Assembly: GCA_002011735.1 (NCBI GenBank)
Contig: MTOQ01000082.1
Span: 1 to 53,644 of the forward strand
Direction of reading: 5' to 3'
Origin: Nitrospirae bacterium JdFR-81
Lineage (GTDB): Bacteria; Nitrospirota; Thermodesulfovibrionia; UBA6902
DNA: 53,644 bases
The position numbers were made by a program, and so were the translations under genes. The stretch's first letter is position 1, and each line of letters opens with the position of its first letter. The notes under the pieces are model-generated. The model saw only the letters and a program-made list of their open reading frames with translations. It was not told where the DNA came from and did no database searches. This document shows positions 5,367-8,802 of this stretch, piece after piece.

Positions 5367-6242
5367 ATGAAGGCCACTGTTTATATTGCGAGATGTGACG
5401 ATCCATACAGAGGCACCACCGAGGCCCTTGACGCCCTAAACTTCAGGATAGAGGGCAGGCGTGTCTATATCAAGCCCAACCTCACTGGTGCAAGGCCCTC
5501 AAATGAAGGTATGACGGTTGATATTGGTGCCGTAAGGGCGGTGCTTGAACGCCTGAATGGCTGCCCTGAGATCACCATTGGTGAGTCCTGTGGTGATACA
5601 GACAGGGCCTTTGATGAGCTTGGATACAGGGAACTCACCAGGCAGTTCCTAGGTGTTAGGCTTGAGGACATAAGATATTCAGATATTGTGTGGAGATCTA
5701 TACCAAGACCCTTCCATACAAGGGAGATGCCCTTTAACGCAACGGTATTCAGACACGATTACATCATCAATATAGCCAAGATGAAAACCCACTCCCTTGC
5801 AGGCGTGACCCTCTGTATGAAGAATATATTCGGTTTCATCCCTACCAGGAGACAGAAGCTGATGTATCATCCGTTCATAAGAAAGGCCCTCCTTGACATG
5901 AATCAGGTCATAAGGAGTGACTTCTGTATTGTTGAGGGTGTATGGGGTAATGAGTTTGATGAAGTCCAGAGCACACCAAAATATACGGGTGTTATCGTTG
6001 CAGGGGAGAATATGCTTGCTGTCGATATGGTCGCTGGCAGGATAATGGGGATAGATCTCCGTGAGATAGATACCTACAGGATGGCCTTTGAGCTATGGGG
6101 AGAGCCGGATATCCAGATAATGGGTGCTGATCTGGATGAGGTCATAGTCAGTTACAGGAGGGGGTGTCTATTCTCCACAAGGATAAGATATATAAAAGAG
6201 ACCATCGCAAGCCTTGCATACAGGGCCATCTACAGGCATTGA
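5367..6242 (+). CDS. DUF362 domain protein
   Basis: 291-residue protein of the DUF362 family. Members occur alone or with ferredoxin domains in anaerobes and have no settled biochemical role. Visible family features are the N-terminal IKPNLTG segment (about residues 36-42), GESCGDTDRAF near 72-82, INIAKMKTHSLAGVTLCMKN near 135-154 and a late segment with MLAVDMVAGRIMG. No CxxC iron-sulfur motifs are seen, so this is the stand-alone form. The ribosome site is poor, so translation may depend on the upstream stem-loop or on coupling. It is convergent with the TtuA-like gene with only 8 bases between stops. Confidence 0.85.
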   Translation: MKATVYIARCDDPYRGTTEALDALNFRIEGRRVYIKPNLTGARPSNEGMTVDIGAVRAVLERLNGCPEITIGESCGDTDRAFDELGYRELTRQFLGVRLEDIRYSDIVWRSIPRPFHTREMPFNATVFRHDYIINIAKMKTHSLAGVTLCMKNIFGFIPTRRQKLMYHPFIRKALLDMNQVIRSDFCIVEGVWGNEFDEVQSTPKYTGVIVAGENMLAVDMVAGRIMGIDLREIDTYRMAFELWGEPDIQIMGADLDEVIVSYRRGCLFSTRIRYIKETIASLAYRAIYRH

Positions 6243-6250
6243 AGGGGTTT

Positions 6251-7198
6251 TCAGTTGACATGCTGTCTCCTTGCCTGGCCTGCCCTTTCTATCAGGAGAC
6301 AGAAGGCACATCTTGTTGGCGAGGTGGTGGGCTGGCCACATGACGGACACCTCTGGAGCCTTTCCAGCCATGTGTGCTCTCCTGCAGAGAATATGCCCTC
6401 CTCCTTTGCCCTCAGAAAGTTGAGGTAAAAGGAGAGCTTTAATGCAGGCCTCTCCTCCTCGAGCCTGTTGAGGACATCCTTATAAAAGAGGCTAGTGGCG
6501 CCCTCTGCATAGGGACAGTCCTCGGTGATATAGCTTATCCTCCTGAGGAACGCGTAAGAGGCAACCTGTTTCTCATAGAACTTGAAGAGGGGTTTCACCT
6601 TTTTTGCAAGGCCCTCTGAGGCTGGAAGAACAGGCCCCTGCCTTATGAGGTAACCTGTAGACCACTCAAGGGTGTTCCCAAGGAGTGTGGCTGCCTCATC
6701 ATCAAGGTTGTGCCCTGTTGCAAGCACATCATACGCATTTTCAATGCAGAATCTGTTCATAACATATCGTTTCAGGAGTCCGCATAGAGAACATACCTTC
6801 TTCCTCCCCCTTGGTGTCTCCATCGCCATATCCACCATGGAATGCCCGTACTCCCTCTTTACATCGATGATGTGGAGTTTCAGGCCCCTCTGCCTTGCGA
6901 AATCCTCGGCAGAGGCCCGTGATCTCTTGGAATACTGGTTGGAGCCATCGATCCCGAGGTCTATATACAGTCCTTCTGCCTGATAACCAAGGCGTGTAAG
7001 TATGTCCCAGAGGGAGAGGGAGTCCTTGCCTCCTGAGACAGCCACGAGTATCCTCTGGTGTGGGTAAAACATGCTGTACCTCTTTATGACCTTTTCGGTC
7101 TGCTCGGGTATCCATTCAAGGTAATGCTCTTTACAGAGCGCAAGCCTGTGCTGTCTCATATGCACAGAGGCCTTTGCCCTGCACTTCCTACACCTCAT
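6251..7198 (-). CDS. ttuA: TtuA-like tRNA 2-thiolation enzyme
   Basis: 315-residue ATP-dependent sulfurtransferase of the TtcA/TtuA group. Such enzymes adenylate a tRNA uridine or cytidine and replace oxygen with sulfur. An N-terminal zinc finger has C3, C6, C22 and H25. The PP-loop SGGKDS is at 55-60. C136, C139 and C228 fit the three ligands of the [4Fe-4S] cluster, and a C-terminal zinc finger has the pattern CPSC...CAFC. This architecture with two zinc fingers and the Gly-Gly sulfur carrier next to it match TtuA of Thermus, which makes 2-thiouridine at position 54. The start ATG has GGAGGG 6 bases upstream; that sequence is the last two Gly codons of the carrier gene. TtcA-type cytidine-32 thiolation is the main alternative. 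Confidence 0.85.
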   Translation of the reverse strand: MRCRKCRAKASVHMRQHRLALCKEHYLEWIPEQTEKVIKRYSMFYPHQRILVAVSGGKDSLSLWDILTRLGYQAEGLYIDLGIDGSNQYSKRSRASAEDFARQRGLKLHIIDVKREYGHSMVDMAMETPRGRKKVCSLCGLLKRYVMNRFCIENAYDVLATGHNLDDEAATLLGNTLEWSTGYLIRQGPVLPASEGLAKKVKPLFKFYEKQVASYAFLRRISYITEDCPYAEGATSLFYKDVLNRLEEERPALKLSFYLNFLRAKEEGIFSAGEHTWLERLQRCPSCGQPTTSPTRCAFCLLIERAGQARRQHVN

Positions 7199-7201
7199 CC
7201 A

Positions 7202-7393
7202 CTACCCTCCGGATATTACCGAGATAAGCTCGATCTCCTCTCCGTCCATCAGTGGTTCATCCTCTGGTATAAGCTCATCGCCCCTTACTGGTATGACCGT
7301 CTGTGACGGAATATCAAGCATCTTCAGGGCCTGAAGGATGGTGATCCCTCCTGGTAGCTCAAACTCCCTATCCCTGAATACTATCTTTACCAT
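7202..7393 (-). CDS. ttuB: ThiS/MoaD/TtuB-family sulfur carrier
   Basis: Ubiquitin-like sulfur carrier of 63-64 residues ending in Gly-Gly. The terminal Gly is normally adenylated and turned into a thiocarboxylate that donates sulfur. The beta-grasp pattern is visible (MVKIVFRDREFELPGG at the start, GEEIELISVISGG at the end). It sits directly before the TtuA-like gene, so tRNA thiolation is more likely than thiamine or molybdopterin synthesis. Two adjacent ATGs are possible. The first (7394-7396) shares its A with the CCA end of tRNA-Ala; the second (7391-7393) lies 2 bases after the tRNA end. There is no Shine-Dalgarno sequence because the upstream bases are the tRNA acceptor stem. The activating E1-like enzyme is not in the window. 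Confidence 0.85.
   Translation of the reverse strand: MVKIVFRDREFELPGGITILQALKMLDIPSQTVIPVRGDELIPEDEPLMDGEEIELISVISGG
7205..7210 (-). promoter_or_regulatory. Shine-Dalgarno of ttuA formed by Gly-Gly codons of ttuB
   Basis: The last two codons of the sulfur carrier, GGA GGG, read GGAGGG and lie 6 bases before the ttuA ATG. The functional C-terminal Gly-Gly and the ribosome site of the partner gene are the same six bases, so coupling of the two genes is expected. Confidence 0.75.
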
Positions 7394-7395
7394 CA

Positions 7396-7471
7396 TGGTG
7401 GACGGTAGGGGATTCGAACCCCCGACCTCCAGAGTGCGATTCTGGCGCTCTCCCAGCTGAGCTAACCGCCC
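7396..7471 (-). tRNA. tRNA-Ala (anticodon CGC)
   Basis: 76-base cloverleaf including encoded CCA (7396-7398). The acceptor stem GGGCGGT pairs with ACCGTCC and includes G3-U70, the alanine identity pair; the discriminator is A. The anticodon stem CCAGA/TCTGG has loop ATCGCAC, giving anticodon CGC (7436-7438) for codon GCG. The T arm carries GGTTCGAATCC. The gene lies between leuC and the sulfur-carrier gene on the same strand, with its own extended -10 box upstream. Confidence 0.95.
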
Positions 7472-7482
7472 TGATTGTCTTT

Positions 7483-7491
7483 ATTATAGCA
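7483..7491 (-). promoter_or_regulatory. Extended -10 promoter of tRNA-Ala
   Basis: Minus-strand TGCTATAAT is a perfect -10 hexamer with the extended TG. The predicted start is near 7476, about 5 bases before the mature tRNA 5' end. The -35 region (CTGAAG, 18-base spacer) is weak, as is common for extended -10 promoters. Read-through from leuC is also possible. Confidence 0.6.
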
Positions 7492-7495
7492 TGTC

Positions 7496-8752
7496 TTATA
7501 CCACCTCTTCAGGTGTCCCTATCCTTCCAAGTATCGCAGAGGCAGCGGCAACTGCTGGGTTTGAGAGATAGACCTCGCTCTCCGGATGTCCCATCCTTCC
7601 AACAAAGTTCCTGTTTGTGGTTGCAATGGCCTTCTCGCCCCTTGCAAGTATACCCATATGACCCCCGAGGCATGGGCCACATGTGGGGGTAGAAAAGACT
7701 GCCCCTGCACTAACGAATATCTCGGCAAGGCCCTCTCTAACTGCCTGGAGATAGACCTGTTGGGTTGCGGGTATCACTATCATCCTTGTATTGGGATTGA
7801 CCTTTTTACCCCTGATCACCTCGGCAGCCTCCCTGATGTCTTCGATCCTCCCGTTTGTGCATGAACCTATCACCACCTGGTCTACTGTGACATGCGACAG
7901 TTCAGCCGCTGGCCTTGTGTTTGAGGGCAGGTGGGGGCATGAGACGGTGGGGGGGATCCTTGAGCAGTCATACTCCCTGACCTCAACATACTCGGCATCC
8001 TCATCAGATGTATAGAGCCTGTAAGGCCTCTTTGCCCTTCCGTCCACATACTGTCTGGTTATCTCATCAGGCACGATGATACCGCTCTTGCCTCCTGCCT
8101 CGATAGCCATGTTACACATCGTGAGCCTTGCGTGCATTGGAAGGGACCTTATCACCTCACCATCGAACTCCATCGCCCTGTATAGTGCACCATCAACACC
8201 TATGTCACCAATTGTATGGAGGATCAGATCCTTCCCACCAACCCATCTGTTGAGACTCCCATAATATATAAGCTTCATGGATTCCGGCACCTTAAACCAG
8301 CATTCACCTGTGGCCATCGCCGAGGCAACATCGGTTGAACCCACACCTGTTGCAAACGCACCGAGTGCACCATAGGTGCATGTATGGCTATCGGCACCGA
8401 TGACTAAATCCCCAGGAACCACCAGTCCCTGTTCAGGGAGCAGGGCATGCTCTATGCCCATCCTTCCAACCTCAAAATACAGGGACAGATTATACCGTCT
8501 TGAGAACTCCCTGAGCATCCTGCACTGTTCTGCTGCCTTGATATCCTTCTGAGGGGCAAAGTGGTCTGGGATAAGGGCTATCCTGTCTCTATCAAAGACC
8601 TCCTTCACACCTATCCGCTCGAACTCCTTTATTGCTATTGGAGCGGTTATATCATTTGCAAGGATGAGGTCGACCCTGGCATTGATCAGCTCTCCAGGGC
8701 CAACCTCCTCCCTCCCACAATGTGCGGCAAGGATCTTCTCTGTTATCGTCAT
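7496..8752 (-). CDS. leuC: 3-isopropylmalate dehydratase large subunit
   Basis: About 418-residue aconitase-family subunit that, with LeuD, isomerises 2-isopropylmalate to 3-isopropylmalate in leucine synthesis. It has the family motifs GADSHTCTYGALGAFATGVGS, IGSCTNGR and PTCGPCLGGHMG; the three Cys in the last two are ligands of the [4Fe-4S] cluster. It belongs to the short LeuC/HacA type of about 420 residues. I chose the second ATG (8752): GGAGG lies 6 bases upstream of it but abuts the first ATG at 8758. The gene follows leuA after a short gap. leuD and leuB are not next to it, so they must lie elsewhere. Homoaconitase activity cannot be excluded from sequence, but leuA context favours LeuC. 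Confidence 0.94.
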   Translation of the reverse strand: MTITEKILAAHCGREEVGPGELINARVDLILANDITAPIAIKEFERIGVKEVFDRDRIALIPDHFAPQKDIKAAEQCRMLREFSRRYNLSLYFEVGRMGIEHALLPEQGLVVPGDLVIGADSHTCTYGALGAFATGVGSTDVASAMATGECWFKVPESMKLIYYGSLNRWVGGKDLILHTIGDIGVDGALYRAMEFDGEVIRSLPMHARLTMCNMAIEAGGKSGIIVPDEITRQYVDGRAKRPYRLYTSDEDAEYVEVREYDCSRIPPTVSCPHLPSNTRPAAELSHVTVDQVVIGSCTNGRIEDIREAAEVIRGKKVNPNTRMIVIPATQQVYLQAVREGLAEIFVSAGAVFSTPTCGPCLGGHMGILARGEKAIATTNRNFVGRMGHPESEVYLSNPAVAAASAILGRIGTPEEVV

Positions 8753-8802
8753 TCCCATCCTCCCTCGGGGTTATAAGGATTTTTCCTCTGGATCCTGTGG
8801 AT

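Follow-up and report, generated by a model that had tools for sequence, protein, structure and literature searches.

Does the maturation of a bacterial tRNA create the message for the protein encoded directly behind it? The question is raised by a locus of Nitrospirae bacterium JdFR-81 in which a gene for tRNA-Ala(CGC) runs into a reading frame resembling ttuB, the gene for a sulfur carrier in tRNA thiolation. We analysed the whole 53,644-nucleotide stretch of DNA that holds this locus (contig MTOQ01000082.1, hereafter the window) and compared it with related genomes and homologous loci.

A tRNA-Ala(CGC) gene shares its last base with ttuB

The genes on the minus strand follow the order leuA, leuC, tRNA-Ala(CGC), ttuB, ttuA (Table 1). 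The tRNA cloverleaf is complete, with all four stems paired, a G3:U70 pair and T54, and its CCA is encoded in the gene (7398-7396). The junction reads ACCGTCC A CCATGATGGTAAAG, and base A76 of the tRNA is also the A of the first ttuB ATG. This shared base, the starting point of the original prediction, was confirmed by the tRNA end assigned by ARAGORN, by the junction sequence and by the ORF starts. No ATG, GTG or TTG lies in frame upstream of ATG 7396, which is the first start of its frame.

Table 1 Coordinates of the features at the tRNA-ttuB-ttuA locus
Feature	Position	Strand	Evidence or remark
leuC, native upstream gene	7496-8758	minus	gap of 24 nt between its stop codon and the tRNA
TATAAT, putative -10 box of a tRNA promoter	7483-7488	minus	exact match, 11 nt before tRNA position 1
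tRNA-Ala(CGC), 76 nt	7396-7471	minus	ARAGORN; Rfam RF00005, 63.8 bits; stems checked
GGAGG within the tRNA, positions 42-46	7426-7430	minus	anticodon stem and variable loop; seen in the sequence
ttuB-like gene, ubiquitin-fold sulfur carrier of 64 or 63 aa, C-terminal GG	7202-7396	minus	Pfam ThiS; PDB 5ztb; homologue alignment
First ttuB ATG, its A common with tRNA A76	7394-7396	minus	sequence; ARAGORN; ORF starts
Second in-frame ttuB ATG, two bases past the tRNA	7391-7393	minus	sequence; ORF starts
GGAGG, ribosome site of ttuA	7206-7210	minus	7 nt spacing; overlaps the end of ttuB
ttuA-like gene, tRNA 2-thiolation enzyme	6251-7198	minus	PDB 5gha, 8e-91; Pfam TtuA_LIM_N

The ttuB product matched Pfam ThiS above the cut-off (2.4e-7), its closest protein in the PDB was Thermus TtuB (5ztb, 2.5e-5), and its ...ISGG end is conserved in the homologue alignment. 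Because of these two matches, the C-terminal GG and the ttuA gene directly next to it, the frame is by sequence a real sulfur carrier, which upholds the earlier assignment. The ttuA start lies 3 nt past the ttuB stop codon. The TtuA-like protein combines Pfam TtuA_LIM_N and ATP_bind_3 with a zinc-finger N-terminus, and alignment to 5gha located the SGGKDS loop, the CxxC and the later Cys. Its score against the NCBIfam TtuA model, which is of the Pyrococcus type, was 282.5 bits (3e-84), below the cut-off of 450; since this model is narrow, the miss argues against orthology to the Pyrococcus-type subgroup only. Judged by sequence, both TtuB and TtuA belong to their families on every count except the cut-off of this one narrow TtuA model. 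The genome also encodes a ThiF-family (ThiF/MoeB-type) E1-like protein (297.7 bits), a candidate TtuC that could activate TtuB.

Homologous TtuB proteins begin with MTVK, which aligns with ATG 7396, or with MVK, which aligns with ATG 7393. Either ATG fits the homologues and the true start may be ATG 7393, which becomes the likely one if cutting takes place at the CCA end. The next Met downstream is residue 26, and starting there would cost much of the fold.

On the other side of the pair, a plus-strand protein gene (5367-6242), which we take to be of the DUF362 type, converges on ttuA and ends 8 nt from its end. On either side, very little DNA separates the ttuBA island from its neighbours.

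How ordinary is such a junction? For a gene already adjacent to the tRNA, the A is shared whenever CCA is followed by TG, which is expected once in 16 cases at equal base frequencies. TG followed CCA in 3 of the 27 CCA-encoding tRNAs inspected in the genome, against 1.7 expected at equal base frequencies. A pattern made of a T arm ending in CCATG gave four matches in this genome and at least one in 186 of 229 genomes of the class, and the reversed control was almost empty. CCATG behind a tRNA is ordinary, and the shared base alone is weak evidence; the unusual part is a real gene that starts at the tRNA end or 2 nt past it. Among 131 tRNAs read in the retrieved loci, a sample partly chosen for CCATG, ttuB was the sole abutment to survive inspection. 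The CCATG count of 25 in 110 is not a rate, as 30 of the loci had been picked for CCATG.

Two further candidates were rejected. Another CCATG tRNA of the genome, tRNA-Ser(TGA), is followed by a 92-aa frame with no known-looking sequence, which by eye appears antisense to an ftsH-like gene. A tRNA-Met from the same class has a CCATG that opens a 255-aa frame, and 14 sister loci show a GTG start downstream with its own Shine-Dalgarno sequence.

In 15 genomes of one genus of the class, a tRNA-Met is followed after about 19-27 nt by a coiled-coil, zinc-ribbon-like gene, which has a ribosome site of its own; at the one locus read fully, the next genes encode an RNase H-like and a TtuA-like protein. 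Here too a tRNA leads a unit that includes a TtuA relative, the second such case, but the spacer is of normal length.

Predicted transcription, processing and translation of ttuB

The exact TATAAT lies within the 24-nt gap between leuC and the tRNA, where 0.010 occurrences are expected per 24 nt of the window, and several other tRNAs of the genome are preceded by a similar box at a similar distance. No good -35 box was found for it, and a strict promoter scan returned no site. No terminator-like site was detected in the region, and the space between the tRNA and ttuB is too small for any terminator. Because a perfect TATAAT precedes the tRNA and there is no room for a terminator before ttuB, the tRNA, ttuB and ttuA likely form a common transcript, started at the tRNA or read through from leuC. 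The common transcript on which the original prediction depended is thereby supported as likely.

No Shine-Dalgarno match of at least 3 nt precedes ATG 7396 or ATG 7393, and ttuA has its own GGAGG. By lenient tests, a match of at least 4 nt was present at one of the first starts in 36 of the 42 long ORFs of the window, and in 23 of 34 TtuB homologues when the start was chosen leniently. The genome contains a gene for RNase E/G and encodes RNase Z-like proteins scoring under the curated cut-off. A cut after the discriminator base is predicted to yield a message beginning CC-AUG, a cut after CCA one beginning UG-AUG, and a cut 2 nt downstream one beginning AUG. In E. coli, RNase E reportedly cuts 2 nt downstream of the tRNA metU (PMC4191395); this offset, transferred here, would place a 5'-AUG end at 7393. 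Two claims of the original prediction held at this point: ttuB has no ribosome site before it, and the cut at the tRNA 3' end would, by sequence, leave 2 nt before ATG 7393. Near-leaderless translation of ttuB is plausible on these grounds.

RNA folding was examined for the precursor and for the cut message. In both, the ttuB start was predicted to pair with downstream sequence, which would hinder initiation; folds of naked RNA are weak evidence. A near-palindrome, ACCATGATGGT, at 7391-7401 could allow pairing between the 3' strand of the tRNA and the beginning of ttuB. We rejected a structural switch at this element: one short fold gave a hairpin, a longer context kept the cloverleaf, and the z-score against shuffled sequences was -0.77.

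Our best explanation, to which we give about an even chance of being right as a whole, combines acquisition of the pair, a tRNA-driven transcript and near-leaderless translation without a Shine-Dalgarno sequence. A foreign pair of ttuB and ttuA genes, probably Chloroflexota-like, would have been acquired and have settled directly behind tRNA-Ala(CGC), and the tRNA promoter would now drive a tRNA-ttuB-ttuA transcript. The tRNA would be released by RNase P together with a 3' endonuclease. The remaining message, with a leader of 0-3 nt, would be translated into TtuB without a Shine-Dalgarno sequence; alternatively, low-level translation of ttuB would occur on the uncut transcript. TtuA would be made from its own site inside the end of ttuB. 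This explanation involves no feedback. The narrower proposition, that a bacterial chromosome here uses tRNA punctuation and that tRNA-Ala maturation makes a functional leaderless or near-leaderless ttuB mRNA, we regard as possible and on balance doubtful.

The closest rival keeps the same transcript and has ttuB translated mainly from the uncut precursor, independently of a Shine-Dalgarno sequence, so that processing destroys the message and each transcript yields either a tRNA or an mRNA. A Shine-Dalgarno sequence is needed in neither case, and the predicted cloverleaf tolerates downstream RNA, lying within 1.2 kcal/mol of the optimum. However, with the folded acceptor stem ending 4 nt short of the start codon, almost no single-stranded standby site is left, and tRNAs usually undergo rapid RNase P cleavage and 3' processing, which counts against translation of the precursor. 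A 3' cut inside ttuB could destroy the message, and in the E. coli scheme an endonuclease cut followed by trimming (PMC4681348) could fall within ttuB. Weighing both sides, we consider this rival unlikely.

Origin of the ttuBA pair

The acquisition that forms part of our best explanation was examined through the relatives of each gene. True TtuA was absent from the 46 other genomes of the order, which returned only distant PP-loop proteins. TtuA relatives in two other families of the class shared 44-50% and 31-34% identity with the protein of the window, and the best public relatives, at 57-60%, came from Chloroflexota, mostly Anaerolineae. A maximum-likelihood tree placed the window TtuA among Chloroflexota and away from both same-class groups; on its long branch, it had no supported exact neighbour within Chloroflexota. 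About 35 of the 80 homologous loci have ttuB just upstream of ttuA, and a tRNA adjoins ttuB in none of the 80 named ttuA loci.

The surroundings are native. The tRNA-Ala(CGC) is up to 95% identical to those of the order, LeuC is 80-86% identical to proteins of family and order relatives, and HslU, encoded on the other side of ttuBA, is up to 82% identical to that of the family. In 22 tRNA-Ala(CGC) loci of relatives the gene never lies beside leuC or ttuBA, and its surroundings differ. At 25 of 29 loci in relatives leuC is followed by leuD, often with a 4-base ATGA overlap; here it is followed by the tRNA. In this genome leuC and leuD lie apart.

From this distribution we infer that ttuBA is probably an acquisition of this lineage that came to lie after the tRNA. 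The simplest history would join the gain of ttuBA to a rearrangement that broke leuC-leuD and brought both the tRNA and ttuBA to the position after leuC. A search of the window for an integration scar, in the form of a further copy of the tRNA 3' end, found none. Conservation of the junction was not found in the family, order or class, and this genome is the sole examined member of its genus. Conserved tRNA-ttuB-ttuA adjacency, which the original prediction had proposed to look for, does not hold: the genes are unlinked in relatives and the overlap occurs in this genome only, the outcome that the prediction itself had named as speaking against it.

An assembly or binning artefact, in which a conserved tRNA sequence would have led to the joining of contigs from two organisms, we judge very unlikely. 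The assembly is a metagenome-like draft (95 contigs) in which the foreign genes start right where the tRNA ends, and the genus is represented in the comparison by this one genome. Against this, the flanking LeuC and HslU are native to the same lineage and the GC content is even (0.43-0.53), and therefore an artefact would need two joins; moreover, the tRNA 3' end has no second copy in the window. Because LeuC and HslU, which flank ttuBA, both match the family, the contig is, by sequence, not a join of two phyla.

Control of ttuBA and comparison with known systems

Separate control of ttuBA from within the tRNA gene is highly improbable. Here a promoter in the tRNA gene or its anticodon arm would drive ttuBA, with the 3' half of the tRNA as leader; a weak -10-like CAGAAT in the anticodon stem, followed by GGAGG, fits such an arrangement. 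However, this GGAGG stands 29 nt upstream of ATG 7396, too distant to serve as a normal ribosome site, and the T-arm hairpin separates the two; the strict promoter scan returned no site here either.

The regulatory meaning first proposed for the overlap, a feedback circuit in which the ttuB message arises from tRNA maturation and TtuB in turn provides tRNA with sulfur, tying thiolation capacity to tRNA production, deserves hardly any credence: the functions do fit (TtuA/TtuB thiolates U54, and tRNA-Ala(CGC) carries T54) and the genome has a ThiF/MoeB-type activating enzyme, but the arrangement occurs in none of the 46 order relatives, 22 tRNA-Ala(CGC) loci or 80 named ttuA loci, a single tRNA out of 39 would sense poorly, the sequence revealed no sensing element, and the foreign origin points to recent assembly. 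The link is unsupported, and nothing in the sequence tells feedback from simple packing after gene transfer. A regulatory story would matter only with a conserved link, of which the relatives examined gave no sign.

The arrangement looks like a by-product of foreign gene uptake rather than a conserved control circuit, and the locus offers one clean case open to testing and no conserved system. Should the cut message prove to be translated, the locus would be a simple counterpart, in a bacterium, of mitochondrial tRNA punctuation: a captured gene would have gained expression by landing behind a tRNA, with neither promoter nor ribosome site of its own, and housekeeping tRNA processing would be the step that renders an mRNA translatable. 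If it is not translated, the locus warns that tRNA-gene overlaps may be leftovers of recent gene transfer.

Several known systems share parts of this layout. The TtuA and TtuB proteins of Thermus thermophilus are homologous and ttuB likewise precedes ttuA, whereas here the order otherwise lacks TtuA and the unit carries a fused tRNA at its front. Co-transcripts of tRNA and mRNA include tRNA-tufB of E. coli. In T. kodakarensis a tRNA-Lys lies in the 5'-UTR of TK0306 (PMC4247193). These examples likewise carry a tRNA and an mRNA in a single transcript, but they retain a spacer before the gene, and tRNA-ttuB has none. Leaderless bacterial mRNAs have been described in Caulobacter (PMC4117421) and P. 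acnes (PMC3848588); they resemble the proposed ttuB message in having the start codon at or a few nucleotides from the 5' end and no Shine-Dalgarno sequence, but they mostly arise from transcription starts at the AUG, whereas the ttuB end would come from tRNA processing. No report of a bacterial mRNA made leaderless by tRNA 3' processing was found in the open-access literature, an absence that is not proof.

The nearest parallel is the tRNA punctuation of mitochondrial transcripts (Ojala et al. 1981, as cited in PMC10941002). There, as here, a tRNA stands directly before a protein gene and its excision would leave an mRNA almost without a leader; at our locus the tRNA abuts the ttuB reading frame without a spacer, as tRNA punctuation requires. 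In contrast to the genome-wide use in mitochondria, the present case is a single site on a bacterial chromosome, has an encoded CCA and is known from sequence alone. By analogy, the locus could work in the same way: the tRNA would mark the cut that sets the 5' end of the mRNA. A lineage-specific bacterial case resembling mitochondrial tRNA punctuation appears to be the best reading of the locus.
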